Assembly (NCBI GenBank): GCA_018105865.1
Contig: CM030856.1
Location: 7,213,220-7,277,219 of the forward strand
Length of the DNA: 64,000 nucleotides
Direction of reading: 5' to 3'
Origin: Metaphire vulgaris
Lineage: Eukaryota > Annelida > Clitellata > Crassiclitellata > Megascolecidae
Below the pieces are notes generated by a model that saw nothing but the letters and a program-made list of their open reading frames with translations, was not told the origin of the DNA and ran no database searches. This document shows positions 258 to 28,651 of this stretch, piece by piece. Every line of letters starts with the position of its first letter. The first letter of the stretch is position 1. The position numbers were made by a program, and so were the translations under genes.

Positions 258-616
258 CATCAATAATTATTGTTCTCAGACATTGGTCTGAAGAACTGTC
301 AGAGGCTAAGGAACCGAGAAAGTCTTAGAAAACTGTTTTATGCAATGATTGCATATATACAGTATATATATTGCATATATACAGTATATATTGCATATAT
401 ACAGTATATATATAATTATATATATATATGTATATATTATATACCTGTCATATTTTAAATTGGTCAGCTCTTGTAAGCCTATGTCACAGTTATAGACTGT
501 AAATTGCGCTAACGAAAAACTGATCGAAGTCTTATCAAGCAGTATAGCAATGGCGAAGCCGCCTTGTAAATATTAGTCATCTGTGTTCAATCGTTTGGAC
601 TTCAGGATAAGCTTAC

Positions 617-984
617 TGTTGCAGATGAGCTCAACAAGTCGACTTCCGTTGTCCTTGGACAGCATCGGAAAGCTCTCGACGTACAGAACGTTATCGTTGT
701 GCGACCAACTGGCTACGTTCTTCACCTCGTAGACGTTCAGCCAAGCGCCGACTGCTATGACGATTATGTGAACGCCCCGTTGCTTGCAGCTTCTCGCCTC
801 CAATATTGCCGCCGTCTCGTTCATGGAACCGCCGTTCGTTACGACAACGAGGACGTTCGGAACACCGCTCCTGTCGCCTCGTTCCCCGGAGAATTCCAGT
901 CTGCAGACGTCCGCCAAGGCGCGGGCCAGGTTCCGCCGACCGCCGGCGAATCGAAGGCCGTCCACCCTTCCGAGAAGTTGGTCC
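617..984 (-). CDS. VWA gene exon 8: C-terminal half of VWA3
   Basis: The acceptor TTTCTAAG starts with one base that completes the Arg codon from exon 7. It encodes DQLLGRVDGLRFAGGRRNLA (the GG-N-A helix region), NVLVVVTNGGS (TNGG in place of TDG) and HIIVIAVGAWLN, ending at LVELICN. The donor is A|GTAAGC, phase 1. The gene continues leftward beyond the window. Confidence 0.82.
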
Positions 985-1405
985 CTTAGAAATATTTCAA
1001 AGTTCAACGTCTTCAGTGAATCGCACAATAAATCAATCGATCAATCAATCAACTTCTATAGCGCCACTATCATAATGCCCAGGGCATCAGCCGATGGCGC
1101 ACCAAATCCAAAAAGCATTAGAGCCAGGTCTAGCTAGAGGAGGATCAGTCCGAAACGCATTCCGAGTCGTCAAATTAAGCAATTAATTATGCACTGATAC
1201 AGTGCCTACCTTAAGATCATATAATTATTATTATTATTATTATTATTATTATCATTATTATTATTATTATTATCGTCATAATCATAATCGTAATCATAAT
1301 CATTATTTAATAGCGCTATAAATATGATTGAAGATAAATAATATTTCGTCGTCAATTTATCTTCAATCATAGGCCTATATGCAGTTTAGTAATGCCTACA
1401 ATTGC

Positions 1406-1459
<54 letters not shown>

Positions 1460-1516
1460 TAATAATAATATAAATATTATTAGTTTAATAATAATTATTA
1501 GGCCTATTATTATACC

Positions 1517-1597
<81 letters not shown>

Positions 1598-4500
1598 GTC
1601 TCATAATGACAACTGGATTTTTAGCGGTTTAGTATGATTTTTCACGTGTTGAAAACAACTGTCACTCATTGGCCTACGTGCAGCTTTAAATTTTCTTCCA
1701 CCTTCTACAGTATTTGTCCGCTACAGCTGTTAACTTCGATTCGCAGTAGGCTATACAGTATACAATGCAAAATTACTTTATAATATTAACATCCATATTA
1801 AGTGTATTATATTAATTTATTATTTATGATATTGTGAGACGGTTTCCTATCGTTTTACCGTTTCTTCTGCGGACAGGACAGACAGACGCGTTCGACGATG
1901 TCGTCGGCGAATGTAGCGACGCCGATTCGAAGGACGTCGCCGGCCATATCCACGCTGCGGGAAATCAGATTTCCCACAAAGACCTTCACGGACGCAAAAT
2001 TGTGATATTCCATCAGATCAGAAGCGTCGAGGACGAAGATCACGTCAGCTTCGTGACGACAACTCTCTGAAGATACGCATATAACATCCATTGCGCATCA
2101 AGGTGTAGTCGTCGTTATCGTCCTCGTCGTTGTCGTCGTCGTCGTCGTCGTCATCACTTTCGTCATTTACAACAGAGATATTATAATCTATTCCGTTATT
2201 CTGTGGGTGGGTAGAGTGGCGGCTCTCGTTTTTGGCAAAGCAAAACCGTTGGGGGAAGCTTCAATCATCAAAATAACAATATAGTTTGTTTAATGTATGT
2301 AACATTAAGCCTAACTAACTTCCCAACTGGGGATAAATGGTGACGACCTCTTTTTGATTGTCAAGATTTTCAATTGGGAATGGTCATAATCGCCCCTCAG
2401 GTGGAGCTACGCCACTGGGGGGAATCAGACTGGGGTCAAAATCGTTTTTGAGGAAGTCTTAAACGGAAAAGATAGAGAGCAGAGAAAAATATCAAAATAT
2501 CAATATAGTTGTACGCAGCTCTTTTAGTGATCTAAATATTTGCCTAACTGAAACTTAATCTCAATAAAAAAAGATAATAGGTGACAGACCTCTTTTTAAT
2601 TGTCAAGATTTTGGACGATGGTTGGGAATGGTCATAATTCGCCCCTTCAGGTGCCCCTCCTGTCGACTCAGCCATTTCGATCTTAATGGAATCACATTTG
2701 CGATCCCATCCAGAATGGGGCCAGGCGCCATCTTATATACCCCCAGTGAGGCTATGGGCTTACAGATTATAGAGTGATTACGCGAATCTTGATTCGAATG
2801 TCGGCGGAAACAAAGTAATCGAGCGTAATTTTCCCGACGGTCTTGCCCAAATCTCACGACTGATCAGAGCCAGAATAGGGGACCCGCCCCGTGCTCCCGG
2901 TGGCCGTGCCAATGCATAGAAGTCACTGACCTTGAACATTTTTTGGCGTCGGTCTAAGGATAGGCCTATCGGTTGTAACCGTTGTACGCACAAGAGTCGT
3001 AAACCCTGAAACGTTCAAATAAGCAGTTTAATTCGATAGTCAAATCCATTATCTCCGCTACAACGTTGACTTGAAAAGTGATGAAATAATGCTTTCGAAA
3101 TTATCTTTTTCCAGGTTTCTTGGCCGAAACCCAAAACCTGAGTCGCAGACATTGCACGGTTCCGTTTAAGGAATGTTCGTAGCTTAAGACAGATGGCCAA
3201 GTTCTCAAGGCGAGTTGTTAATGACACGAAATGTCGTATGGGGCTGTCCATTAATTACGTCAACAATTTAGGGGAGGGGGTTTGAAAAAGTTTGACAGTT
3301 GTGTACAAGGAGGGGGTCAAGAGAAGTTGACGTCAACAATTTCACTTTTTACAAATAATCAAAAACTAGGACATTTCATGGAATACTACTTATTATAATG
3401 GAAAAAGCATTGCAAAAAAGGTCATAACCATCACATTTTGACACTCGACGAGCAAAAAATGGAAAAAATGGTCATCATCGCAAAAAATATTAACCTTGTT
3501 ATTAGGACCCGTCATTGATCTGGGGGGGGGGTCAAAAGTTTTTGACGTAATTATGGGGGGAGGGGTAACTGAAAGTTGACAGTTGTTGACAAGGGGGAGT
3601 GGGTCAAAAATTGTCCAAAAATTCTTGACATAATTAATGGACAGCCCCTATGCGACCGAGTCTTTTAGAGTGTGTGGTTGAAATAAAAACAGATCAGCAG
3701 TGGGCTAACAGCCCAGCAGGCCGTTCGACTTGCAAATTATATCGCGAGGAGAAGATGAATTGAACGGGGTACGATTAAAAATTCTATCCCTTAAAAGTTG
3801 ATTGGAAAACAAACCGTCCCCAAAAATGTTTTATCTGATCAGGCGTATCCAGGACTTTCTGAAAATATTTTCAAATTTAAGTGGTGACGTCACTACAGTG
3901 TGATATTTTTAGGCAAAGGGGAATTCCCGGTCGTTGCTTACGTCTCCACCCGACTTGTCCCCACCATACATACATAGCAAGGGGGATGATTCATGCTGTC
4001 GTTAATTCATTTAACTAAATTATTTGGCATATAATGAGGCGATTACAAATTTCCTTCCACCCACTGATCTGATTCTTTCCTCCCCCTCCCCCCCCCTCCC
4101 CACACAGCTGGTCTGAAAAGTGGCGTAACCAGAATTCTGAAATGGGGGCACTTTGACATTTTCGGGGAGAAAAGTCTCCGACTATCATGAAAACCTCGTC
4201 AAGTAAATAAGTCCTCACTTTATTTCACGTATTATCTTCGATCATGCTGTACCTACCCCCACCCCCAATTTCTCAACGGTTTTGCGCAAATCCTAACGAG
4301 AATAGGGGTCCGGCCCCTGACCACCCCAATTTTTCTGACTCTTAAAGTTAAAGTCTGCGCCATTGACGCGGAATTTAGAGTCACCTGGTCGAGGGGATGA
4401 CACCTTTGCGTCAATGACGTTGTCTGGAGCTCGAGTCCGAAGAGTGAGCGACATGTTGACTACGAGAGATCGGCAGAAGTCCCTGTCGAATATCCTGTCG

Positions 4501-5019
4501 CTGACCGTTCCCGCGCAGTCGAAACTGTTGAGTGGAACGTAGTCGTCTCTGGTCGGTCACGATGGTCGTCAGATGGGTTTCGTTCGACAATTTCTGCGAT
4601 CGTCAAGTACAAAATGGACAACTGAAGACCGTTCGTCGTATGAAGGACATTGGCCTTCTTCTTCTGTACATGGCTGCTGTCTGCGCATGCGTAAAGTAAC
4701 GAAATAGACGCCGCTTGAAGACTGCGAATCATTATGATATGCCAGTGACACGATGTTTTAATACGACGTGCATTGAATGGGGAGAGAGGGGTTGCACTCT
4801 TTCCACCCAAGAGTTTTGATCTTCAGTATGGAGTCGGACAACTAAGCCCAGAATTTTTCATCTCCACCCCGTGGTCGGTCGGCCGCGATCAGGATCGAGG
4901 TTAGATCCCCATCCGTTGGTAATTCGATTGCTGTGTGCATCAGTGTATCTCTAATTGGCAGCAGCCTACTACTGAAGAGGACGATGAATGAGCAGGAACA
5001 AATGATGACGACAACGACG

Positions 5020-5051
<32 letters not shown>

Positions 5052-5966
5052 AACGACATCAACAACGACGACGATTCACAAGCGTACGGGTGACTAGACT
5101 AGTCGGCTTCATCATCGTTCTCAAACCTCGTTTCTGCTTCTGAATTACACGCAGCCAGAGAAGAGGGCAGTGTTTTATCCAGGCCTGTTAGGGGAGAGAT
5201 CTCCCCACCCAAAAACAACAAAAGTTCCCCCTTCCCAAATCCCAGCAGTGACATTTTTGCATTGAACTGTGTCTCTTCCCCTCCAGCCAAGCCAATCCCC
5301 TTCAAGGCCTGGAGTCTGGATGTCTGTGGGGAAAAAACACTGCCTGGCCCTCCCAGAATAAAGATTAAACAACAAATGGTTGGCCCCCATGATTAACGCC
5401 CACCCCAACAGCCCCCATTTGCCAAATCCTAGAGCCGCCACTGCCCCCATTTTTCACCCAAGTTTGCCTCTATGAGTCACTCACCGTAGGCTTTGCGATT
5501 CCAATTGCTAATATTCGAATCCTCATTTCACGGATTTTCCTCAACTCCTCCTCCAGCTCCTCCACGCGGTCAACGGCCAAAGATTCACGCGACACGAGTA
5601 TCACCACACGACGGACTGACCCCCGACCCACCCCCCACTCTCCGCGGAACAATCTTTCGCGGGCCATCCTCAAGCCACGAACTACGTTCGGGTTACCGTC
5701 GACGTTACGCGCCCCAAGGCGTTCGAATGCGTCCACCAACTGGGCGGTCGTTCGACGGGCGGACAGGTTCAGGGACAGGTAGGCGTCGCTTCCGAATTCG
5801 ACGACACCCACTCGCGTTCCGTCGTCGGTGAAGTTGAGGAGAAAGACGACGCTTGCCAGGCAGCTGACCGTCTTGTGCCAATCGTCGGCTGAATTGTTTC
5901 TTCCAGAATTTTCCACGACCAACGCCACGTCTGCCATGCAGCCTTCAAGTACAGCGTGTGCTTGTG

Positions 5967-6021
<55 letters not shown>

Positions 6022-6027
6022 AACAAC

Positions 6028-6066
<39 letters not shown>

Positions 6067-6166
6067 CATCGCCACCTTCTGACCTTCATTGACAAGTCAG
6101 CGGTGTCAAAGCGCTTTTGATTTTGGATATTAAACCATGAGTACAGCGCTATATAAATTGTCCTGG

Positions 6167-6240
<74 letters not shown>

Positions 6241-6503
6241 CAGTGGCATAGCCAATGGGGGTTTGCGGGTTAAACCTCACCCCTTGGCTGCCGAAAACAA
6301 AATTCTTTTAATGAGATTATATGCATTTTTAATTTTGGGACGCGAATTTGGGCGATTTTGGGGGTCAAACCCCCTCTTGGCTACCAGGCTATTAGAATGT
6401 AACGCTTTAAGAGGTGACGACCTTTTTCTTTGCTTTTGCGAAGTTGGTCACGGTCAAAACCAAAAACCAAAACCCCCTTCCGGAAATCCTGGCTACGCCA
6501 CTG

Positions 6504-6577
<74 letters not shown>

Positions 6578-7979
6578 TCATAAATCTGCTGATTCTGAAG
6601 AGCATTTTGCATGTAGTACGCACCCACTAAATTATCAGAAGAGCGTTTGGTTGTTGATGTTGTCATTGGCGTTGTCGTTGTTGTCATTGGCGCCGTCGTT
6701 GTTATCACTGGCGTTGTCGTTGTTATCATTGGCGTTGTCGTTGTTATCATTGGCGGTGTCGCTGTTATCATTGGCGTTGTCGTCACTGGCGTTGTCGTTG
6801 TTATCACTGGCGTTGTCGTTGTTGTCATTGGTGTTGTCGCTGTTGTCATTGGTGTTGTTGTCATTTGTGTTGTCGTTGTTGTCGTCATTAGCGGTGTTTT
6901 AGGCGGCGGCCGAGTAGCTGCTTCGGCGCAGAGGGAGTCGTTTTCTAGAACAATTCTCTTGAAATCCTTTATCTCGAGAGACTTAAAATCTTCGACAAAA
7001 TGGTACTTACTGTCGTCGGAGGCAATCTCCTTCAGTAGAGTTTCATTTACCTGGAAAAAATATTCTTGAAAATTAGTAACCGTCCCTTTTGCAGTCGTCT
7101 GTAGGTGGTTCGAAATCCCAATCAGAGCCGTATACGTAGAGTGGCCTATTTGGAGCCCCGGGGCAAGGCACAATTTCACCCACGGACAGTTTAAAAACTG
7201 GTGATGACCATTTTTATCAGACTTTGAGGGGCGAAGTAGTGCAGAAAGCGGGCGATTACCTTTTTTCTTGTCATGCTGACAATACCTTCTACAGGCGTTT
7301 AACTTGTTACAACCATGGTTTCTGGCGCCACCCCTCCCCCACTCCACCCCAAGACAGCGTCCGGGGCAGCTTGCCCATGGGCGTCCGCATAAATTCTTCC
7401 AGAGGGGTGCAAAACAGGGTCTTGTGACGAAAGAAATGAAATTTTTTTCCAAGGAGGTGCAAGACAAGGTTTTGTGACAAAGAAACGAAATTTTATTTTT
7501 CATTCTGGTTGGTTGTAGTCAAGATAAGTAATTTTGCTAGTCAGAAAAAGTGTTTTGAAAGTCATCGAAGAAAATGACAGTCTTATCCTATCGTTAAGTT
7601 AAGCAATAAACAAAAAATACGTTACTGGTCACTGGGTAAACCTAAACAAACAACTACGTTTCTTAGTTTTTAAAAGAGATTATATATTGGAAGTTGGTTT
7701 TAATAGCTTCAAGTTTTGACTTGAAATAGCGCTTGTGCCGTTGAGTCTTTTCTTTTTTTCGTCATTTTCTCTTTCTCAGATCTCTTAGATATAAGCATAT
7801 TGTTGTAAGCTTATTTTAAATTGTATGATGGGATATAATTATGAAACACAAGAAAGAAACTAGGCCTCCTCCTAGAGGACTAGACGGCAAAGAATGAGAT
7901 TACACAGCAAGACCGTAATCATAATGGGTGAGATAAGCAGTTTCACACAGGACAGACCCTATTGAACCATTCGAAACCC

Positions 7980-8057
<78 letters not shown>

Positions 8058-8077
8058 TGTTATTATTATAGTTATAT

Positions 8078-8138
<61 letters not shown>

Positions 8139-8167
8139 ACTACTACTACTACTACTATTATTATTAT

Positions 8168-8228
<61 letters not shown>

Positions 8229-8233
8229 TGTTG

Positions 8234-8269
<36 letters not shown>

Positions 8270-8454
8270 TTTGTCAATATTATTAATATTGATTATTATT
8301 ATCACCATAATAATGATTATAATTAGTATTATTGTGGTGATGATGACGATGACGAAGACGACGACAACGATGATGATGGTGATGACGACGACGACGATGA
8401 TGAAGATGATGACGATGAATGCATGCATGTAACATCATTATCATATTGCGAATG

Positions 8455-8488
<34 letters not shown>

Positions 8489-9795
8489 GTAGTCGTCGTC
8501 GTCGTCGTCATTACAATTTTTCTACTGACCAATCTGCTGACTCCGATTGTGATGATCGTGATATTCATGGCTTTGATCAGCGTCACTTCGTCCGGGAGTC
8601 TGTTTACGTCGAACGTCGGGACGCCGTCGGTTATCAGAATGATGACGTGGCTCACTTCCGGTCGCATCCCGTGGCTGGCGTCGAACAGCGCTTCCCTGGC
8701 CAGTCGCAGTCCGGCCGTCGTGTTCGTGTTTTCGCCCTTGTATTTCAGGTTTCGCACCCAATCTCTGACGTTTGCCTTGTCTTGTCCGGAATTGAAATTC
8801 CAACCGAGATAGCCGCGGTTTCCTATATAATTATACGAACGCCATAGCTATTTTCAGTGGCTGCTCTAGGATTTGGCAAGTGGGGGCGGGGCCGTTGGGG
8901 TGGCAACTTCTAATCATGGGGGCCAACCATTTGTTGTTTAATGTATGTAGCATTAATTATAGGGTCCCAACTGGGAGGGCCACTGAGGGGGGGCAGGCAC
9001 TCAATAGGCCCCCCGGTGGAGCCGCCACTGGCTCCACCGGGGGGCCTAAGAAAGTCTGAGTGCCTAAGAATAAGCAGCTATTGTGCTGAATTTTCAAAGC
9101 GCTATATAAATCCACGAGATTTTACTTACTTACCTAATGCTCATCATCAAGCATCGACCTTGTTAGGCTGATGTGACGATTGTCGGATCTACAGCAGTGG
9201 CGGCTCCACATGTTGATCCCGGGGGTCTGTGCCCTCGATTGAATGCCTGCCCCCAGTGGTTCCCCTGTTGAGACCCTATAGTTACTAATGCACACCTGTC
9301 AACAAATGGTTGGCCCCCGTGCTTAGAAGTTGCCACCCCAACGACCCCCGCTTGCCAAATCCTGGAGCCGCCACTGATCTACATAGAACTGACTGTTAGA
9401 TATAGGGTCTATAGACCCACATTATCTATTGCTAATTTTTATGGCCATATGCTAGAGTAGACCTATATCTCTACCGTATGCTATGTCCGACGGTTTTCTC
9501 TTTTCTCAAAAAGCTACTAAGGTTATATAGAGGAAACTGCGTCTCTTCGGATGTATCTGTCGTATGAAAGATGATAGAAAGATCAAGCCTAAAATGTTGG
9601 CTATTATAATGCTTCGCAGGGAATGGTGTGATGACATTGGTGATTGGTGTGGAAAATGTCTGCAAGAACTATGTCATCGAGCTGCGAACAGAAAATATGG
9701 GGACAAAACGGTGATGGTGGCATCAGACACCAACGGTCGCTCAGCCCAAGGCTATTGATGATGATGATGATGTTGATGATGATGATGACGAATGC

Positions 9796-14273: not shown

Positions 14274-15284
14274 ATGGAACCAGAAAACAGAAAACGACTG
14301 AAGAAAAACTACTGTTTGTTGGTCGACAATTTACAGTTTAACGAAATCCAGGACCTCTTGTTTCAAGAGAATATTTTGGACGACGAAGAAGTGGAAACGA
14401 TAGAAGGAAAAGCAACAAAAAAGTCGAGAATCAGGGAGTTGCTAAAGATTCTAAAGGGCAAACAGGGCGTATTTGAGAAATTTTGTCAGGTGCTGAGAAA
14501 TTGCGAGGCTGGCTACTCTTATATAGCAGATGAGTTAAAAAATACTGAAATAGTTGATGATGACGAGGACCTGGTAGACGGAAATGATCAGTCTTACAAG
14601 GAGAAAGTCGACCAACTGATGACGCAGGTTTGGGATCAGACGCAGATTATGTCTGATTTGAAGAAACAGCATCACATGGAGGTGACTGAATTGCAACGAA
14701 GATTGAGTGCTGCTTCTCAGTTGCAATCTCCAGAAAGTCATAGGCCTGTCGAAAAGGATGTTGTTGGCACTCGTTTTGTCGAGAAGTATGTCGCAGAATT
14801 CATGCAGATGCCAACGAATGACAGATTCAGTCCTACAGATTGGATAAACCACTTCAGTCAACGATCAGCTGATGATATTGCCTGTCATTTGGGAATTGAC
14901 ATAATGCATTATTGTCTTAGAGATGCTGGCTATGATGTTAAATTGAACCCAGCGGACATGTACACATCTGTAATGAGAGAAATGGTTAAAGAGGCTCTTG
15001 AAAAATATGGAAAAGATTTGGAAAATTGTGTGTTGGAATTGCACACAGAGGAACTGAATGGCTATTTTGCAATTGAATCGCTAGCGGACGAATTGTTTGA
15101 AGATGACAAAGAGGTTAATTGGGGTCGAATAGTGGCGTGGTATGCTTTCTGGGCAAAGTGTGTAATTTCATTTCCAAAATTGCACATCGCCCAGCTCAAC
15201 GAGTTCATCAACCTCTATGGAAAATTTATTGGTTTTTATTTGGCTCGACGACTTCAAAGTTGGATTAAAATGCAAGGAGGTTGG
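14274..15284 (+). CDS. CARD-BCL2 exon 1
   Basis: 337 codons. The start ATG follows AT-rich DNA with in-frame stops, and the CARD begins within five residues of it. The frame stays open 10 codons past the splice site, but the sequence TTGG|GTAAGA is a strong donor in phase 0, directly after Gly-Gly-Trp of BH2. Reading through would replace the second half of BH2 with VRNFVKYLT. A possible non-coding upstream exon boundary (AAATAG before AGAAC, about 14242) is visible but unproven. Confidence 0.88.
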
Positions 15285-16641
15285 GTAAGAAACTTTGTTA
15301 AGTATTTAACTTAGATGTTTTGCTCAGTAAAGTTAAGCAATTGGGTATTGTTTCCAGTAACTAAGTTTTTGATTATGATCTGTGTAGATTAATGTGTTAT
15401 TCATTCATTGTAGGGGTTGTTGTCAATATTCAATTTTTAGAAATGCAGTGGGATCAGACTGTATCCACATAATAATTTTAAACCTCCATGGGGGGGGGTT
15501 GAATGGCTGAGTCAGGATATGCAATGCATGCACATGCCTTGACAACCTCAACATGAATCTCCAGTGAATGTGGTCTTGTGTGAGTCGTGTGACTGAAGTC
15601 AGGTCTAGTCTGGTATTTGTGGGGTCATGTCTTATGTTGTCCATCCATCTTTGCTTCTGGTGTCCCCTTAATCTCATCCCTGATAACCTTCTAAGCAAGG
15701 CTTTGTGTGGTGGTCTATGGTTATCCATTCTGTTGACTTGCTCAAAGAATTTCAAAAACAATTTCAGCTGTTGGCATCCAAGTCTTTTGGGCTGTTGAGT
15801 AAGAAGGTCAGTACACATAACCATGGAGTCATAAACATGAAACTTGGTTGCTACTTTGATCACTTTGTTTTTCCAAAGGGTCTGCAGCACTAGCTAGACC
15901 CATGGTTCTCAAATTGTGTTCCACAGACCTCCAAAGGTCCATCAGAATGCTTTAGGGGTATGGGGAGGCTGTGAACAGGGTCAAGAGCAGGACAAAATTT
16001 GATTAAAGGCAACATATAACTTTTGTAATGGTGTATCGAATGTATTACAATTCTTGTATAAATGTCAGAGGTTCATGAGAATATCAGGCCAGAAAAGGGG
16101 TCTGCCACTAAAGAATTTTGAGAACCGTTGAGCTAGATGGATTCTTCCTATGAACTAAGCAGACATTAAAAAAACACCTTAGATCCTGGGATGAAATGGA
16201 AACAGTATTGGTGTTCCATAGCATGTCCATGTTGTTACAAATATGCTAATGGACAGTATATAATCCATTCTTCCTGTAAGTAGAAGTCCGTTATAACACA
16301 ATTTAACCTCTAGTTTTACCATAACTGTGTAATGTAAAGTAGCTTGCAGTAGTAAATGACACAATTACATGCTATTTACTGTTTATATAAGCCAGTATGG
16401 TATTCCAGTTTGAGGTTGTTTGTATATGCCAATTTTTGTGTTTGAAGATAATAATGTTAAAGCACAAAAACTGTCTACAAGTCTTGAATTATATTTCTGA
16501 ATATTGTTTGTGTTTTCTGTTTAGGCTTCTTTTGTCAAATGGCAGGCCAATGGTCGTAAAATTCAGAGGCAAAGAAGTGCTGTTATAAACATTGCTTACG
16601 TTGTCCAGATACTCTTAAAACATTTTCCTTTCCAACCATAA
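14274..16641 (+). CDS. CARD-BCL2 fusion protein (two-exon gene span)
   Basis: The joined exons encode 375 residues. Residues 5-90 form a CARD, an adaptor death fold that pairs with other CARDs (as in APAF1 and caspase-9). Residues 105-148 look like a coiled coil. Residues 200-355 look like a BCL-2 fold: a BH4-like helix (IDIMHYCLRDAGYDV), a weak BH3-like segment (ALEKYGKDLE, Gly-Lys where Gly-Asp is usual), BH1 (EVNWGRIVAWYAFW) and BH2 (WIKMQGGW continuing ASFVKW). BCL-2 proteins control mitochondrial permeability and caspase activation. The C-terminus has a basic patch and a short hydrophobic run (AVINIAYVVQILL), a possible but weak tail anchor. I know of no human BCL-2 protein with an N-terminal CARD. 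Whether this one promotes or blocks death cannot be told from sequence. Confidence 0.88.
15480..15890 (-). pseudogene. Non-LTR retrotransposon 3' ORF fragment
   Basis: Reads GMRLRGHQKQRWMDNIRHD, the typical G-[RH]-P-x-x-RWxDNI end of an ORF2 protein. Lies antisense in the CARD-BCL2 intron. Confidence 0.7.
15900..16130 (+). mobile_element. hAT-like MITE in the CARD-BCL2 intron
   Basis: Ends CATGGTTCTCAAA and TTTTGAGAACCGTTG; flanks AGCTAGAC/AGCTAGAT (7 of 8). Confidence 0.82.
16525..16641 (+). CDS. CARD-BCL2 exon 2: rest of BH2 and C-terminal tail
   Basis: The acceptor TTTTCTGTTTAG is strong. It opens in phase 0 with ASFVKWQANGRKIQRQR, giving GGW-ASFV across the junction and matching the GGWDAFV of vertebrate BCL-2. 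Then come AVINIAYVVQILL, KHFPFQP and a TAA stop. It is only 38 codons. Reading-frame fit, splice signals and completion of a known motif together make it convincing. Confidence 0.85.
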   Translation, partial: ASFVKWQANGRKIQRQRSAVINIAYVVQILLKHFPFQP

Positions 16642-18395: not shown

Positions 18396-19629
18396 TCAAC
18401 TGTTTGTTGAGTGACTTCCATTGTTCTTAAATGAATTTGTCAAGTCTTTCGTGAATTTTGATTTATCTTCCGGTGGGAAATACCGAAACATCGGCGCAGA
18501 AGATAACACAGCATCAACCGCATCGCTTCGACCAAGGTCCAGCAGCTTCTGGATAAGAAGCCGAATTGTGGCATTCGGATCTTTTGTCCAAAGCGCTAAA
18601 ATGTGATCGGTTTTACTTCCTATCTTCGAGGCTTGTGTGTCCAAATGAGGCAGTTCACTAGAAAGGCCAAATGAAACCGCCAGGAGGCACCAATCACGAC
18701 CGATTGGATCCGGTGGATCGAGAACAGAACTCAACTGACGTCGAGCATTTAGTGACATGTGGCTTACGTGAAGCTCAAGGCCAGGCTTCATGCAGGCATA
18801 GATTTCTTCTGATCCAAATGCAACTAGGTCGATCAACCGTTCTTTTATAACTTTACCGCCACACTTCAATGTCAGCGTTTCTCGTTCTTCCATTTTGGCG
18901 AGCAGGACGTCCTTCGGAATGTAGGCTGTGACAGGATCGTGGTGCGCAGCCAGCTGGTACACGCTCAAAAGATGTCGCTCGAGACTGACCGGACGGCAGG
19001 CTGTCTTCGATTACACTGAAAACAACTTCACAGATATCCTCAAGAAAATGATACAGTTGCTTGTCGAAGTTCCGAGGACCTCGGCATTTGATTTCAATGA
19101 CTTGTTCTTCCTGCTCCAGTGTTAGCAGAGTCTCGAGGCTTCCACGACAATATTTTGATCCGTGATACCACTGGTAGAGGTCCACGTCAGGATCACCCTG
19201 CTCTTCCAGAAACTGTCTTCGCAACCGGACCTGAATTTGAGGGAAAATGTGCATTAGTTGGTTTGTCATTCCTCTCTGCGTTACTAGTCGCACTCCGCCG
19301 TATGCGAAGTCTTCCAACAGGCGAGGTTCTAAGCGATCCCAAAGTCCACTCAAAGTTTCGACGAAATTGAGACACGGCAGTTCATATTCGACTTCGCCGT
19401 CGATATCGCAGCGGGTGCTGACGTGCAGTGCTTCCAACAAGACCAAGAGTTCTTCCGCCTCGCAGTCGGGAAATCGCATCTGGAAGTCTTCTATCGTAAA
19501 ACAGCCGGTCTGCTTGGGACGAAGCGTCCCGTTATGGGAAAGCACCTGGCCGATAACAGTGCCGCATAACCAACGAGGACTCAGCACCACGAGATCGTCG
19601 TCTGGTCTGTCTGTTTCAACGTAGACTAC
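18396..19629 (-). CDS. DAPK-like exon 15: COR region and death domain, with a frame break
   Basis: 1234 nt. The first part (VVYVETDRPDDDLVVLSPRW through LEDICEVVFSVIED) is in phase 0. Homology then continues one base out of frame as VSLERHLLSVYQLAAHHDPV to the stop at 18398-18396. The switch must fall between about 18968 and 19010. The exon length is 411 codons plus one extra base. The C-terminal 110 residues are a death domain (DPIGRDWCLLAVSFGLSSEL, then LLDLGRSDAVDAVL). A true frameshift would remove the death domain. A sequencing or assembly error is equally possible. Confidence 0.82.
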
Positions 19630-22491
19630 CTAAACAAAAAATAACAAATCAAACGTTACAAACAGATTCCTTAATACAGAATAAATGTATTTATGGATAT
19701 GGACTATTATAGAGGTCCCCAAAAATTGTCATTTGCTGTAGCTTTGAACATTTAACTATGGCATTAATCATAACCTTTTATCTTAATATTTAAGATAAAT
19801 GTTTAGGTCCCAATATAAACCATACCAATATATAGTATAGTATAGTATACCATCATGGACTACGGATTACAGACTATGGATTTTACCCAGATTGAGCTCT
19901 CGTGAATAAGCTGGTGCACTGCGCCAAGCTTTCGGACAGCGCTATAGAAATTTCGTTTTTACTTACTTACTTAGGTAAAATATAAGTTCTAAACTCCCAT
20001 TTCAGCCTTCAGATTTTTATCCATTGGTAATGGCACTGTATTTTCTACAGAGCTCATGATTATAAAGTACAGAAAGTCTTTACTTCTCCAAGAAGCTGCA
20101 GCTGACACATGACTTCCTTCATGTGTTCCTCGCTTGCCAGGATGTTGACAACAGTTCGAATGTATTCGGTGAAACTTGGCCAGGTCACGACCGGGTAGGA
20201 TGCAAGAATCTGACGCCAAGCAGGCAGAGCAGCCACTGTTGCTTCCAAGAACCCACTACCGGCTGGAAGCTTCTGTTGACAACAAAAAATGCAAAACAAG
20301 ACACACTGATAGCAAATACATGTACATGTACTCTCTGATCTTGTAACATTCCATTCAAATTTCAAAATACAAATTGAATTATTGGTAATTTCAAGTCCTG
20401 CTCTGTAGTGAAACCATCATCCAAGTGGTTTAGCAGATTACATTAATTCTTTTTAAATAAATATGATTTTAGTCAAAAGCTGTGAAGAAAAGTACTAAAA
20501 TAAAAATGCATTGCCCAAATTGGAAAATATTAATACAAGTTATATTTTTATGACTACCAAACAGTGTTTTATACAGGCCTGTTAGGAGGGGAGATCCCCC
20601 AAACCTCAAAATTCCCCCCAAAATCCCAGCACTTACACAAATTTTGCACTGAACTGTGTCTTTTCCCCTCCAACCAAGTCGATCCCTCCCCAAAATGCAC
20701 TGAACTGTGTCTTTTCCCCTCCAACCAAGTCAATTCCCCCCCCCCACCAAAAAGCCTCAATTTCCCCCACCCCAAGGCCTGGAGTCTGGATAAGACACTG
20801 CTATCAAACTTTATATGGTATGCATTTTAGAAACAGTCTTGTACATGTCTGACCTCACAAATATTGCATAAATCAAAGAATATATTTCAAAATTGGATGA
20901 GAAAGAAATAAAAATTAATGCAATCACTAAAGAAAATGAAAATTTAAAAATACACCATCATTGCCAGCAGTAACATTTTTTTAAAAGTATCCAGTGGTAG
21001 GAGTCAAACTATTTGACTCTCCAAACACCAGTAACTGGTTGCTAGCAATCATTCTTTACCAGTCTATTCTATTCTATTCTTTATGACAATTTGTATAGCA
21101 CAGTAACATAGCAAGGGCCAAAGTCAAGAGCACTTTATATGGAACAATCCAACGAGATATTAAAAAGGTGCGTCTTTAGTCTTCAGTCATACATGACATT
21201 ATTTGATCATCTTTAATGTTACAAAAAAACAAAGAATTATAACTCATTTTGGTTTCACAGGGCTCCACAATGTATGCTTTTCGTTAAAGAATGACCAAAT
21301 TAGATATTAAGAAATCGTAATCATTTGCAAATTTACCTGGCAGATGGAGGCTTTTATGTCACTCATGACATTCCTCAGGGCTTTCATTTCAGACGACATC
21401 GCTAGATGGGAATCGACTATGAATATCCTTGGATAGATGTTTAGTTCGGCCTCGAATTTCTGGCGCACTGTCTCCAGAACTACGGACACCTCAGGGCTAT
21501 TGTACTCTCCCTTGCTGTTAGCCGCGACTGAGGACTTGTCAACGTGAGTAGCAACAAGGAGAACCTTTGCTGGACATGGGAGACGTCCAGCACATCCTGA
21601 AAAAAGAACAAATCTCTTAAATGTAAGAGACAAACTTTTAAAACATGTCCACTGCAGGGAGTACATTAAAGAGGTCTACTACTCCATTATATATCAATCA
21701 CAGTATAAATTGAAGAGTTAGTTTAACGCAATTTTTCATGACAACACAATTGTTCATGAAAACACGATTTTCATGATGACACAGTACTGGAAACTTCTTG
21801 AATGTGCTTATCCTGTGGGAAAAATATTCAGTCTCAACATAATTAAGTAAATAAATAACATAATTAATTAACATAAATAACAATTAAGCTTGTTGAATTT
21901 GTCAGTGTACCAAATAAAGTGCCATAAGAATTGTTTGAGTAACTTCTGAGCAGATTGCATAGGGAATGCAGGCTTTGGACAGCAAATGCTTCGCTTCTCC
22001 TGTGTCTCCCTTTTAGTATCCTAATCCTTTAACATCTAGTTTAATATATCAAATATCTAATATATCTAATATTGTGATAGGAAATACTTTTACAATTGTC
22101 TGTACAACTATTTTCTGATATTGAATTGTAATATTGACGATCTTTGGTTCTGACATTGATACTAATAAACTGATTCTGACTGCTGTCAACTGTCGTTAAT
22201 TAGATTTCAGCGGGCCTAATATATTGTGAAAAAATTGGAGGAAATATGCAAAGCTTCCAACCGATTGGTTCCAATGGAGGCATTCGGGCCTTGAGAAAGT
22301 TGAGCCAAAACAGAAGCTGCGTCAAATGGATATCCTGTGAGTCCACGAGACTGAAGACAATCATGTGTATGCAATTGGGATCGCCAATGAAGTGGTCGTA
22401 CATCATGTAATAAGGCTCATAACCGGAAAACTCCCAAAAACTTAGGTCACCAGCAGCTAAAAGAAACAAACAAGCAACTTACAACGCAATC

Positions 22492-22535
<44 letters not shown>

Positions 22536-22988
22536 GCGCGTATTATACATACTGTACATTTACAAATGCATATATTATATATAATGAGGATACTTGCATC
22601 ACATGCACAACATCTAGGATAGGTCTTCAGCTCAAGGTCCCAAATCCAGAAAAGTTACGGCATTAAGCTCCCTACTGCAGTAGAACTTCCCTTATATGGT
22701 ACTTAGCAGGTCTTTAAAAATGTAATACGCTATATCCGAGGTACGTTATATCCAATACCATGCAATACAGTAGCGCATAAAATAGGACAGTCCATTGCAA
22801 TATGTTATAACTGAGTCTGTTATATTGAAGTTCTACTGTATAGTCTCTGTTCTGGCAGCGCACATACGAAGCAGGATTTAGTATTTCATCTAAACAAGAC
22901 AAAACCTGAAATGGTAGCCTGTTGCACATCTATTCCATGTGTGTAGCCATCATGGACAGCTTCAAATGACAATTGCGTATCTAAACTG

Positions 22989-23026
<38 letters not shown>

Positions 23027-26000
23027 TCGTAAGCCGTTTTCTTGAATAATACCTTCAAATGATTACATAAGAAAAACAAACAACACATTGCAAAACTTTA
23101 TCCCAAAGGAATTTAGAAACATTTTCACAATTTAAATGATATGATAATCCTTTAGCTGCAATGCATACATTCATAAATAAAATAGTGCATATTGGAAAAA
23201 CTGCTTAAAGCAAATTATGTTAATATTATTCATGCTTGCTTTAATTATAATTAGCCATCAAGTTAATTAATTAAATCGAATTAAACAAATGTGATCAAAA
23301 TTAATGGTTCAATATTTTCTCATCGATCAAAACACAAATATGATACCGTTATCTTCACATTTATTAACCTAATATTATACCTTTGGAACTTGAAGTAGAT
23401 GAGGTAGTAGAATTCTGAATACTGTTACCAAGGCCTGCCTTTCGCAAGAAACTGCCAAAGTAGCCACACTTAAGCGAGTCAATCAACGTTGTTTTTCCAA
23501 CTCCACTGCCCCCAAATACTTTAACCTTTATCCTATTAAGTGGAGTCTGATTTGGCATCAGCTGGTGAATGCAGGCTTCCTGTCGTTCCTAGGTTAAATA
23601 AATCAGTTTCTATTTTAACCATCTATCATTCAATCATAGTCTTCGCTTTTCGGCTAAAAATAAAAACACAGATCAAACTAAAACAGCAATTATTTTTAAA
23701 CACAAAATTCCCTCCGCAGAAAACAAGATCGCTTCAAGTCTATTAAATTCAATGTAAGTAAGTATGCAAGTAATATCTCGTGAATTTATATAGCGCTTTG
23801 GAAAGTAGTACCGTAGTGGCTGCTTATTCTTATGTGCCTAGTCACTCTTGAAATAGCTATAGGCTAGGTACAATTGTCAGTCAGGAAAAGATCGGCATAT
23901 CCATAAGGCAGTGGGGCAGGTTGTTATAGCTCCAGAGGAAATTACTTTTGTGCTGTTGATCACAGAAGAACAACATCATCACTGAATACAAAATTAAAGC
24001 AATATTCTCAAAATTTGTATAAATTAATTGCTGCAATGAACAACAGGTAAACAGTTACAAAGGAAGCAACAGGAATGCACTCACAGGTCTTAATCTGCCA
24101 AGTAATTCAGCAACTTCATTCTGCCCCTGAGCTATTGCCATTATTTCCGCTGTAATGCCGTCCTACAAAGAATCCGAAAATGTTAAACATCAATTTACTT
24201 GAATTGCAATTTTGTGAACTACAATATAAGCAGATTGCTTGATTAGTCAGTCAATCTGGCCACTTAACTTGTCAATTAATTGTTTATCAATGATGTGGAA
24301 TTTCCAAAAATTTCCAAAACAAAATTATAATCAAAAAGTTTTTACTAATTTTAACCAAATTCTCTGATAGACCTTGCAGAACAAATGTGTTCAAAAAGAT
24401 TAGTTCAAAATTCTTGTTTCATTTTTGGAGGATGGTAGTAACTATGCTACATCCCACATTTTATTAGACACAGTGACAAAACGTAGCTAAATGCAAGAAA
24501 ATTTCTGCAAGGGTGCAGCACCCAGAAGAATATTGCTATTTTTCCCTGAAAAAACCATTGACTTTCCTTTTTGTCTATCTGCTGAAAACCCCGATTTTAA
24601 ACTCTTTTCAAGTTTTTCATCTTCTTGGGTTTTGACAAACTGTGCAATTTCTTAAAAAGTACTTTAAGTACAACATTAGTAACACCCTATTCAATTCTCA
24701 CCTGCAAGGCATGAACCAATAACTGGAGCTTTGTAAGATATGCCTGCCATGCAAAACCTACAGGTTGTGTGTGAATTGAGAAAGGTCCAACAATAAATTC
24801 ACAAAAAATAGGATAATACATAATATTTCTGCAAACCAATAGGTTGCACTGACCTTGTTCTGAAGATCTAGCAAAGCCCCAGACAACAGAAGACAACGGA
24901 CGACTTCAGTATGACCATATCTGGAAGCAAGATGGATCGGTGCCATTCCTGCCTACAAGAAACCAAAATAACCATTAAGGATGCTCCAATATTATCTTAA
25001 TCAGACCAACATTTATTAATTTCATGCAATTCTTCAGAAGTCAGAAGTTATGTTTCAGTTTCGCAGAACATACCATAGACCCTCTGATAGAAGTCTCTGA
25101 CATTTACTCCTCCCCCACGCTTGGCTTATGTTTGAGACCTGGCTTTTATTAGAGGATCTATGGTATCTTTTCTTGACTGCCTATTTCACTTAACCAGAAC
25201 CAGCCAAATTCAGGCTCATCATTTAGAATTTGACCCACAAGCAACCACAGACATGATTACAATAAATGATTTTACCATCCAGCGTATGTTGGCTGATGCA
25301 CAGTGCACTGATATACAGTCAGTGGCATAGTCAGGATTTCCGGAAGGGGGGTTTTGGTTTTGATCGTGATAAAAAATTTTTGCAACCAAATTCTTTCAAT
25401 TTTCTATAGCACTTAGAAATTTTTTCGGTGGCAGCCAGCCAAGAGGGTTTTGGCCCCAAAATTGCATCTGAAAATGAAAAATGTATGGAAAAGCATGTAA
25501 AAATTTTCTTGTCGGTGGCCAAGGGGGTTTTAAACCCCCAAACCCCCTGTCTGTGCCACCTTATACAGTTATGTCACTGTGGGAATTTCCACAATCTCTT
25601 TCTCAACATTGAACACATTGCTGTTCCTCAATTTGATGCTACAACCGCCCGCCCTCTAGTGAGTAAGGTTGAGTCGACCTCAGAGACTTCCGTGGGGTTG
25701 AACCCACTCCGTCAGTGTGCCTTCCAAGCGTGTGACCACTTCTGCCGTCTTCATTGAAAATTAATTCCAGCAGTATCTTCTAAGTGAAGATTTTGTTAAG
25801 TCAAATTCTACAGCAGCTACAATGCCATGAGTAAAAGCAGTGCTTCTTTTCTAGGAAAAAGGTTTGGGAACTTATTTCCAGGGCCGTCATCAAGAGAAAT
25901 TCCGGGTCCCTGGGCAGAGCTGTGACGGGCCCCTAAAAAGTTTTGACACTTTATTTTTTAGTGGTGACGACCCCTTTTAGTCATCAAGTGTCAAAAAGTG

Positions 26001-28651
26001 GTGATGACCTTTCTTGCTCATCAACAAAAACAGGTGTTGGAACGTTCCCAAACGCATTATTACATACCTATCCATAATTATATATACAATCTGGCAAAAG
26101 AGGTTTGGGAACGCCGTTCCCGTGCGTTCCCACTGAAAAAACCCTGAGTAAAAGTAAGTAAGTACCTTACTGACAACATCAATCTTGCAACCATAGGCAC
26201 ACATGGTCTGTACCACGGGAAGCAAACCCTCTCGGCACGCAGGATGCAGTGCAGTTTCTCCATTCTGGTCAACGATATCGAACTGACATCCAGCTTCCAG
26301 AAGCACAATGGCGATGGAAGTGTGGCATCTTCGGCAGCTGAGATGGAGAGCAGTGTTTCCTCTCTGATATGCGAGCAAAATAAAGAATGAATTTAACAAG
26401 GCAATCAGGAAAGAAAAATACTAAATTCAAGAAATATCAAGAAACAAGAAAGAAACATGGACGTCTGCAGAAATTTTTCCAAGGGGGGTGCAAAACAGGG
26501 TCTTGTGACGAAAGAAATGAAAAAAATTTCCAGGGAGGGGGTGCAAAACAAGGTTTTGTGAAAAAAAAACAAGTAATTTTACTTTTTTCATAACTCCACA
26601 ATTTTTCCAGGGGGGTGCAATTGCACCCCCTCCGGACGACCATGGCAAGAAAAGCAACCTGCAATCATATAAACATCAAACAGATCTGACCACTGGTAAA
26701 TACAAATGTTATGCATTCTCCATATTATACTTTCAATATTTTATTTTCACAAGCTAATCTAACATTTGATGGAGTCTGAAAAGTTCAGCATTTCTATGCA
26801 AGAAATTCCTAAATAAGCAAATCCTGCTAAATAGAACTTAGCCATACTTTTAAAGATCTCAACAAGTTTTAAGCAACACTTTCTAACCTTATCAGGGACA
26901 TCAATTACTGCGCCATGACTGAGTAAAATTTTGAGACAATCTATATTTCCTCTGGCTGCTGCACAATGCAATGGGGTGTCACCTTCCTACAATGCATACA
27001 TCTGAACACTACATTTAAATAACAGTCAGCATAATGATTGGTTGGGGCAGCATTTATTCCAGGCCTTCTCTGGTCTCTGGGGGGATTCCCCCCAAGTTTT
27101 AAAATTCCTCCCAAATTTTTTTATGTTGGCTGTGGGGATGGAAATTCCCTCTCCCCCCAAAAAGCGTGGAGACTCAGACCTTGTCCCCCCAAACATTTCA
27201 AAATCCCCCCAATATCAAGGTGGCTAGAATAAACACTGGGTTTGGGCATGCTAAAAGAATGGATAACAATAGATGGACCTACAAAGCACTACGTACACAC
27301 AAAGAAGAAGGAGATAGAGGGCGAGGAAGACCAAGGAAAAGATGGATGGATAAACAACATGGAGGATCTGGAAACAAAGAACATGACATTATTGTGGAAG
27401 GATGCAGATTAGCACAAGGGATTGCTTTCTAAAGATATCTCAACAACATAAAACACACTGATGTCTCTAAGAGTGCTGATTCCATTTGAATTTAAATTTG
27501 ATGACTAAGATTTGCAATTTTCTGATTAAATAATTGATTGACGAAACAAGTAGCCTATGTGTTAATCTAATTACAGTTAATTTAAAATTTAAATTTTATG
27601 AGGTCTGCGAGTCATCACAAAAATTTCCAAGAGACCACCACATGAGAAATCCTAAAAAGTTTGAGAACTGCCACTTTAGATTCTTGGAGAAAAATATGCA
27701 CAGGAGTCTAAGGAGTACATAACAACTCACAAAAATGGTGAAAGTATGTAAAATCTTGAGTATTTTATCTTAAAAAAATCCGATGATTTGCCTTGTTTCG
27801 TAAATTCACTTTGCTACCAGATGAGCATAGAATCTGAGTCACTTCAGAGGGAAGATCGTACCATGCGGCCAAATGCAGGGCGGTATCACCTTGCTGAAAT
27901 CCATACAACGGTAATTCCTTAAGACCATCAGAGTCAAATAATATACCTTCATAAAATCAATGAGAGTTTCAAACATTATGTTAGATTTATGGCTATTTTA
28001 TTGTCTATTTTTCAAGCACATGCAAAACACATTTGGATGTATTCAAATGTAACCCACATATATTTAATACCATGTACAGTATCACTGGCACTTCTAGGTA
28101 GTTCTGAAAATGCATTAATGATATAACACAATTTTTCAAATGGTTTATGGCATCATACTGTGTGAAAACCACTGCAATTACTCTAAACACTTAATAACCC
28201 AGGGGGTTCTACTAGATAACTTTTGAATCCACATATTGTTTCAACTGTGATTGCCTTTTTGTTCAAACTCTCCCATTTATCTCTAAAACCCTCATACTAA
28301 AAATTTCTTTCTTGATCCAACCCTCTTCTTGAAGAATTTGCATTTGTGGTTTCTTGTGCTGCTATAGTGTGCTAATACAGTACATCTACTTTGTCAGTCA
28401 TTATCTTGCATGTTTCTATGAAACATGCTCTCTCCCTTCCTTCCCCTTTCTAATATTGTCAATCCAAAATCATGAAGTCTTTTACTTATAGGCACTTAAC
28501 TAAAAGGGCTGGTGAAAATGTCAATTGGCATGCATTCAGCTTACATGATCACAGAAACAAAGAGGCTGAAGACAGCCCTCTTTTAAAAGTAAAATTGAAC
28601 AGTGTCATGTACTGTGTTCTTGTAATACTTCATTGGTTATAGTGCTGAATA

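Follow-up and report, generated by a model that had tools for sequence, protein, structure and literature searches.

Can the two layers that control intrinsic apoptosis be carried by a single protein? BCL-2 proteins and CARD caspase platforms form these two layers, and they are separate proteins in the animals in which the pathway has been worked out. The question is raised by a stretch of 64,000 nucleotides from the annelid Metaphire vulgaris (assembly GCA_018105865.1, contig CM030856.1, positions 7,213,220 to 7,277,219 of the forward strand), which we call the window and to which all coordinates refer. An original prediction, made from the DNA letters, had proposed that one protein encoded in the window joins an N-terminal CARD to a BCL-2 fold. 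We found both Pfam domains in a single exon of one gene, here called the CARD-BCL-2 gene, and when the same architecture was sought in relatives, it was present in 10 related sequences.

Exon 1 is an uninterrupted open reading frame. Its ATG (14274) lies one codon past an in-frame TAG, and it ends at a GT donor (15285). Joined to exon 2, it gives a product of 375 amino acids (Table 1), and the reading frame, the splice sites, and the joined product are those first proposed, with agreeing coordinates for ATG, GT, AG, and stop. As both domains lie inside exon 1, the fusion is independent of the choice of splice sites. The lack of a transcript joining CARD and BH1 had been named as the result that would speak against the fusion; a contig coding for the spliced 375-residue protein was found. 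It belongs to P0001 of the protein collection, which is 99% identical to the window protein over all 375 residues and whose source tag “lgn” presumably denotes assembled public reads. The contig has 1,920 bases, fewer than the genomic span of 2,368 bases from ATG to stop, and therefore lacks the intron. Judged by this length, its source is spliced RNA or a copy processed in the same way. A genome search with P0001 recovered exon 1 with E 7.4e-231.

A Pfam search of the 375 residues placed both families above their curated cut-offs, which is the outcome expected from the hidden Markov model check proposed at the start. The CARD (PF00619) scored 45.4 bits against a cut-off of 23.9 (E 8.5e-12), and the BCL-2 domain (PF00452, residues 234-337) scored 54.6 bits against 31.4 (E 1.8e-14). 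No Pfam match to NB-ARC, WD40, or a caspase domain was obtained in the same residues. The CARD-like bundle, originally set at residues 5-90, corresponds to the Pfam CARD at 7-89, for which AlphaFold2 predicts six helices (3-11/13-19 as a kinked first helix, 22-31, 37-44, 49-61, 67-76, and 82-90). In this model, the CARD bundle is followed by a long helix and then by a BCL-2 helical bundle, and structural matches were obtained. Over residues 200-355, where the failure to form a BCL-2 fold would have argued against the proposal, such a fold is predicted. A second structure model, led by the related sequence P0009, was poor (mean predicted local distance difference test score, pLDDT, 52.5; predicted template modelling score 0.40); its helix order is similar, and it was not used as support.

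The motifs of the BCL-2 half differ in strength. BH1 (NWGRIVAW) and BH2 (WIKMQGGW-ASFV, split by the phase 0 intron) are both present and in the proposed order. The BH3-like motif was claimed too strongly: a segment exists at residues 230-245, but its G-D core is missing, as the Gly position holds Gly, Ala, or Ser in none of the 11 aligned sequences described below and the Asp position holds Asp in one. The BH4-like motif is likewise weaker than claimed. It is backed by an alignment with BCL-xL and a predicted helix at 199-217 (AlphaFold2) but by no other sign, and the matches listed for the window protein up to E 1 did not include the BH4 model of Pfam. For the proposed coiled coil, AlphaFold2 gives one single helix of 40 residues (108-147), which is compatible with the claim and is predicted with moderate confidence (block pLDDT 59-80).

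Three protein searches yielded 11 sequences. One is P0001, almost identical to the window protein, and the other 10 are the relatives. The last search added nothing new, at a stricter E limit (1e-10) and with the same number of candidates scored as in the preceding one. All 11 match both PF00619 and PF00452 at E 0.001 or better. The one named relative is LSAT2_027704 of the tubeworm Lamellibrachia satsuma (P0008), with 29% identity. Pairwise identity in the CARD part correlates with that in the BCL-2 part (r = 0.949, 55 pairs), as would be expected of two halves inherited as a unit. Invariant columns number 37; the BCL-2 part has 23 of them, the CARD 8, and the stretch of acidic linker and coiled coil (residues 93-147) the remaining 6. 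W283, G284, R285, and I286 of BH1 are invariant in all 11 sequences.

Four sequences (P0001, P0005, P0008, and P0009) carry on into BH2. The other seven have a valine right after the BH2 tryptophan, followed by the end of the sequence or by unrelated letters, as if they ran into an intron at the same BH2 site. Of 26 further BCL-2 loci in the M. vulgaris genome, 25 have a valine codon (GTN) directly after this tryptophan (L026 does not; L027 yielded no frame and was left out of the count), and an intron appears to begin there in these 25.

Could the gene be an artefact, with two neighbouring genes joined by misassembly or by wrongly chosen exons? An independent sequence with 99% identity and 10 further relatives share the architecture, which makes chance or misassembly unlikely. 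With both domains in one open exon and both families matched in all 11 sequences, which come from several source records, we regard wrong joining as ruled out for practical purposes and its probability as negligible.

Next, we asked what kind of BCL-2 protein the second half resembles. A tree was built from 43 rows, comprising the window gene with 25 further BCL-2 loci of its genome, 8 human segments, and 9 of the aligned sequences; L025 (fragments), L027, P0001, and P0010 were left out. The CARD-BCL-2 rows group together in a starred clade (99/96), which lies in an open group with 7 of the genome’s own BCL-2 loci and apart from the starred groups of BAK (9 loci of the genome), BOK (3), and BCL-xL/BCL-2 (4). 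In BCL-xL, the BH1 arginine contacts an Asp of the ligand. Because this arginine is invariant, the protein’s own BH3 is degenerate, and the clade lies outside the BAK and BOK groups, the BCL-2 half is likely a receiver of BH3 ligands, pro-survival-like rather than a BAX-like effector. Three points temper this assignment. The tree does not itself make the protein pro-survival, with human BAX, MCL1, and BFL1 on long branches and unplaced; the clade is joined to no human pro-survival member; and BAX tops the Foldseek rows for the predicted structure.

The Foldseek result would also fit a pro-death effector, a BAX-like pore former that is clustered through its CARD and coiled coil. The degenerate BH3 core across the aligned sequences argues against it, as does the tree, where the clade is separate from the starred BAK and BOK groups that are represented in this genome (by 9 and 3 loci); we consider this alternative distinctly improbable. 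A BAK- or BOK-type effector is disfavoured by the same two features; a BAX type is conceivable. As a separate observation, the nine BAK-like BCL-2 exons (L015-L021, L023, and L024) group with human BAK (98/97, starred). BAK is a single pro-death gene in vertebrates, and by comparison, these exons are an expansion as far as their grouping indicates.

The lost BH3 core can also be read in another way, with the CARD as an ARC-like decoy that caps CARD assemblies and the BCL-2 domain as an idle scaffold or second decoy. Precedent comes from ARC, whose CARD inhibits death and contacts BCL-2 proteins according to the accessible part of PMC4453921. Of the 37 invariant columns, however, 23 lie in the BCL-2 half and include the WGRI core, which argues for a working groove, and such a decoy therefore seems unlikely to us. 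We retain the receiver of BH3 ligands as the preferred assignment.

By its sequence, the CARD of the window protein is a general one. A single-protein search gave MDA5 as the best match (26.4 bits). When the CARD profile was searched against the PDB, the top row was a designed protein (34.2 bits), followed by NLRC4 (30.5), RAIDD (28.9), MDA5 (26.6), BIRC2 (25.5), and caspase-9 (at most 23.2). A front end of the CARD9/CARD11 type is unsupported, as the CARD11 CARD reached E 0.15 in this search, and no row for the CARD9/CARD11 coiled coil appeared among the best 60 of 68.

R13, R52, and R56 of procaspase-9 are crucial for contact with Apaf-1, as are D27 and E40 of Apaf-1 for contact with caspase-9 (PMC3314614, accessible part). 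In a contact alignment with caspase-9 and Apaf-1 CARD sequences, the D27 position is Asp and the R56 position is Arg in all 11 sequences, and the R52 position is Lys or Arg in 10 of 11. As the charged contact is partly retained, on both faces, a type I CARD-CARD contact is plausible, and the CARD could join CARD assemblies. The rest of the charged contact is not retained: the R13 position is Tyr, Phe, or His in all 10 sequences that reach it, and the E40 position is Val, Leu, or Met in all 11, with mostly acidic neighbours. In the structural rows, MDA5 is tied.

The MDA5 matches, including this tie, would suit an immune platform resembling MAVS. Its CARD would receive input from immune CARDs, RIG-I/MDA5-like or other, and its BCL-2 part would set the mitochondrial site and choose between inflammation and death. 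The very large CARD repertoire of the genome fits this reading, as does the tail of the tubeworm relatives: the best 19-residue hydropathy is 1.65 in P0008 and 1.83 in P0009, whose hydrophobic C-terminal segments seem suited to a tail anchor. The window protein itself has a weakly hydrophobic tail (1.32, P0001; 1.03 in P0005). In addition, the profile that matches NLRC4 and MDA5 also matches RAIDD and caspase-9. MAVS has a long proline-rich stretch, which the linker of the window protein lacks. Weighing both sides, we hold such a platform to be rather unlikely, and we keep a contact with death-pathway CARDs as the preferred role of this domain.

Is the gene unique in its genome, and are potential partners encoded there? 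The genome (728 Mb, 246 contigs) has BCL-2 matches at 29 places and caspase-domain exons or matches at 77 places. It also has the erythrocruorin linker domain, known from annelids, at 8 places (best E 1.3e-26), which together with the tubeworm relative fits an annelid genome. The full fused protein matches at one place only, so the CARD-BCL-2 gene is single-copy. Among the 150 CARDs scored of 639 candidates, the one closest to any of the other 28 BCL-2 places is 67.3 kb away. The family CARD profile found no CARD of the window type in the 27 loci covering these places, where the scanned flanks measured about 1.5 kb (L001-L008) or 4 kb (L009-L027), and Pfam found no CARD in the 10 frames scanned from them. 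A second CARD-BCL-2 gene was not found in these searches.

The CARD repertoire itself is very large, with the 150 scored matches clustered (22 on C23, 14 on C21, and 13 on C8). One separate CARD exon, L036:4964-5281 on the minus strand, has the same KRLKK start, is 35% identical to residues 6-116 of P0001, and contains one stop. No listed BCL-2 place lies within 1.6 Mb of it, and it is possibly related to the donor CARD. One caspase-domain place has a partial CARD match 2.8 kb upstream, in the same orientation, and is one of five CARD/caspase pairs within 40 kb seen among the parts of the lists that were compared; a CARD-caspase is likely encoded in the genome. Despite the many caspase and BCL-2 places, NB-ARC gave no genome match at E 0.001, in an exon-by-exon search that is weak for a fragmented gene. 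APAF1_C gave none either, in a search that had no positive control, and neither result shows that APAF1 is absent.

How might such a protein work? We tentatively favour, at somewhat below an even chance, a cell-death brake in which the single chain links a BCL-2 switch to a caspase or adaptor that bears a CARD. In the resting state, CARD and coiled coil would bind this caspase or adaptor and keep the complex inactive, with the 40-residue helix as the candidate that drives self-association. A BH3-only ligand would then occupy the BCL-2 groove, and the filling of the groove would alter the assembly so that the caspase is released or activated. The direct coupling of a CARD platform to BCL-2 control, as first proposed, is upheld in that there is one protein with both folds predicted, a spliced contig, and 10 relatives; we infer the coupling itself and every step beyond the existence of the protein and its predicted folds. 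In Caenorhabditis elegans, CED-9 restrains death by directly engaging CED-4 (PMC7456325, accessible part). The brake would follow the same logic with the docking module fused in. Its main rival is the immune platform described above. A more far-reaching version, in which the BCL-2 groove controls its own CARD as an annelid one-protein switch and BH3 signals reach initiator caspases without cytochrome c or an APAF1-type ATPase, is conceivable but doubtful.

As a conserved natural fusion, the gene would mean that evolution has physically joined the two control layers of apoptosis, and such a pairing would likely let BCL-2 signals act directly on caspases. It bears on mitochondrial apoptosis in annelids and offers one small protein in which the coupling of BCL-2 and CARD becomes directly testable, with BH3 binding at one end against CARD assembly at the other.

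Other features of the window lie on the minus strand. The region 18396-26420, in convergent orientation to the CARD-BCL-2 gene, contains exons with a Death domain, a COR-like stretch, and ankyrin repeats, which possibly belong to one DAPK/ROCO-like gene. A simple motif search of the window found no kinase. Between and beside the von Willebrand A-type exons (573-8847), there are long simple repeats that read as homopolymeric stretches.

Table 1 Features of the CARD-BCL-2 gene and of its neighbours in the window
Feature	Position	Strand	Remarks
Exon 1	14274-15284	+	Residues 1-337: CARD, linker, probable coiled coil, BCL-2 up to the BH2 tryptophan
CARD	14292-14540	+	Residues 7-89, PF00619
Long helix, probable coiled coil	14595-14714	+	Residues 108-147, AlphaFold2
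Degenerate BH3-like helix	14961-15008	+	Residues 230-245, V-K in place of the G-D core; 11-sequence alignment
BCL-2 domain core in exon 1	14973-15284	+	Residues 234-337, PF00452
BH1, NWGRIVAW	15117-15140	+	Residues 282-289
First part of BH2, WIKMQGGW	15261-15284	+	Residues 330-337
Intron	15285-16524	+	Phase 0, 1,240 bases, GT...AG (AG at 16523-16524); splits BH2 right after GGW
Exon 2	16525-16641	+	Residues 338-375 and stop (16639-16641): BH2 end, C-terminal tail; frame kept
C-terminal weakly hydrophobic helix	16564-16623	+	Residues 351-370, low-confidence model helix
Death domain PF00531	18396-19010	-	50.1 bits
COR-like stretch	18853-19629	-	Sub-threshold
Ankyrin repeats	25980-26420	-	Exon
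von Willebrand A-type domain exons	573-1040, 5473-6096, 8332-8847	-	Three exons, region 573-8847

The literature searches found no description of a CARD-BCL-2 protein, with most subscription papers outside their coverage. The known modules thus stand in a combination that we did not find described and that is kept in 10 relatives. The nearest published mention we found is a TRADD-N-Bcl2 fusion (PMC8195603), which likewise joins a death-pathway adaptor domain to Bcl2; TRADD-N, however, is no CARD, and the accessible part of that source names no CARD-BCL-2 fusion. With the pro-survival proteins BCL-xL, BFL1, MCL-1, and CED-9, the window protein shares PF00452, BH1 NWGR, BH2 W..GGW, and the predicted bundle fold, and with the other BCL-2 loci of its genome (25 of 26), the apparent intron position. 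In contrast to these pro-survival proteins, it adds an N-terminal CARD and a probable coiled coil, has lost the G-D core, and seems, in M. vulgaris, to have a weak C-terminal anchor, a feature that is common but not universal in the BCL-2 family. Unlike APAF1 and caspase-9, it has no NB-ARC, WD40, or caspase domain, and the R13 and E40 positions are not kept. In CARD9 and CARD11, a CARD is followed by a coiled coil; this CARMA layout is similar, but the CARD11 CARD match is marginal (E 0.15), and the C-terminal halves were compared through Pfam only. ARC (NOL3) resembles the window protein as a CARD protein that acts on both death complexes and BCL-2 proteins (PMC4453921, accessible part), but ARC has a P/E-rich tail in place of a BCL-2 fold and meets BCL-2 proteins in trans.
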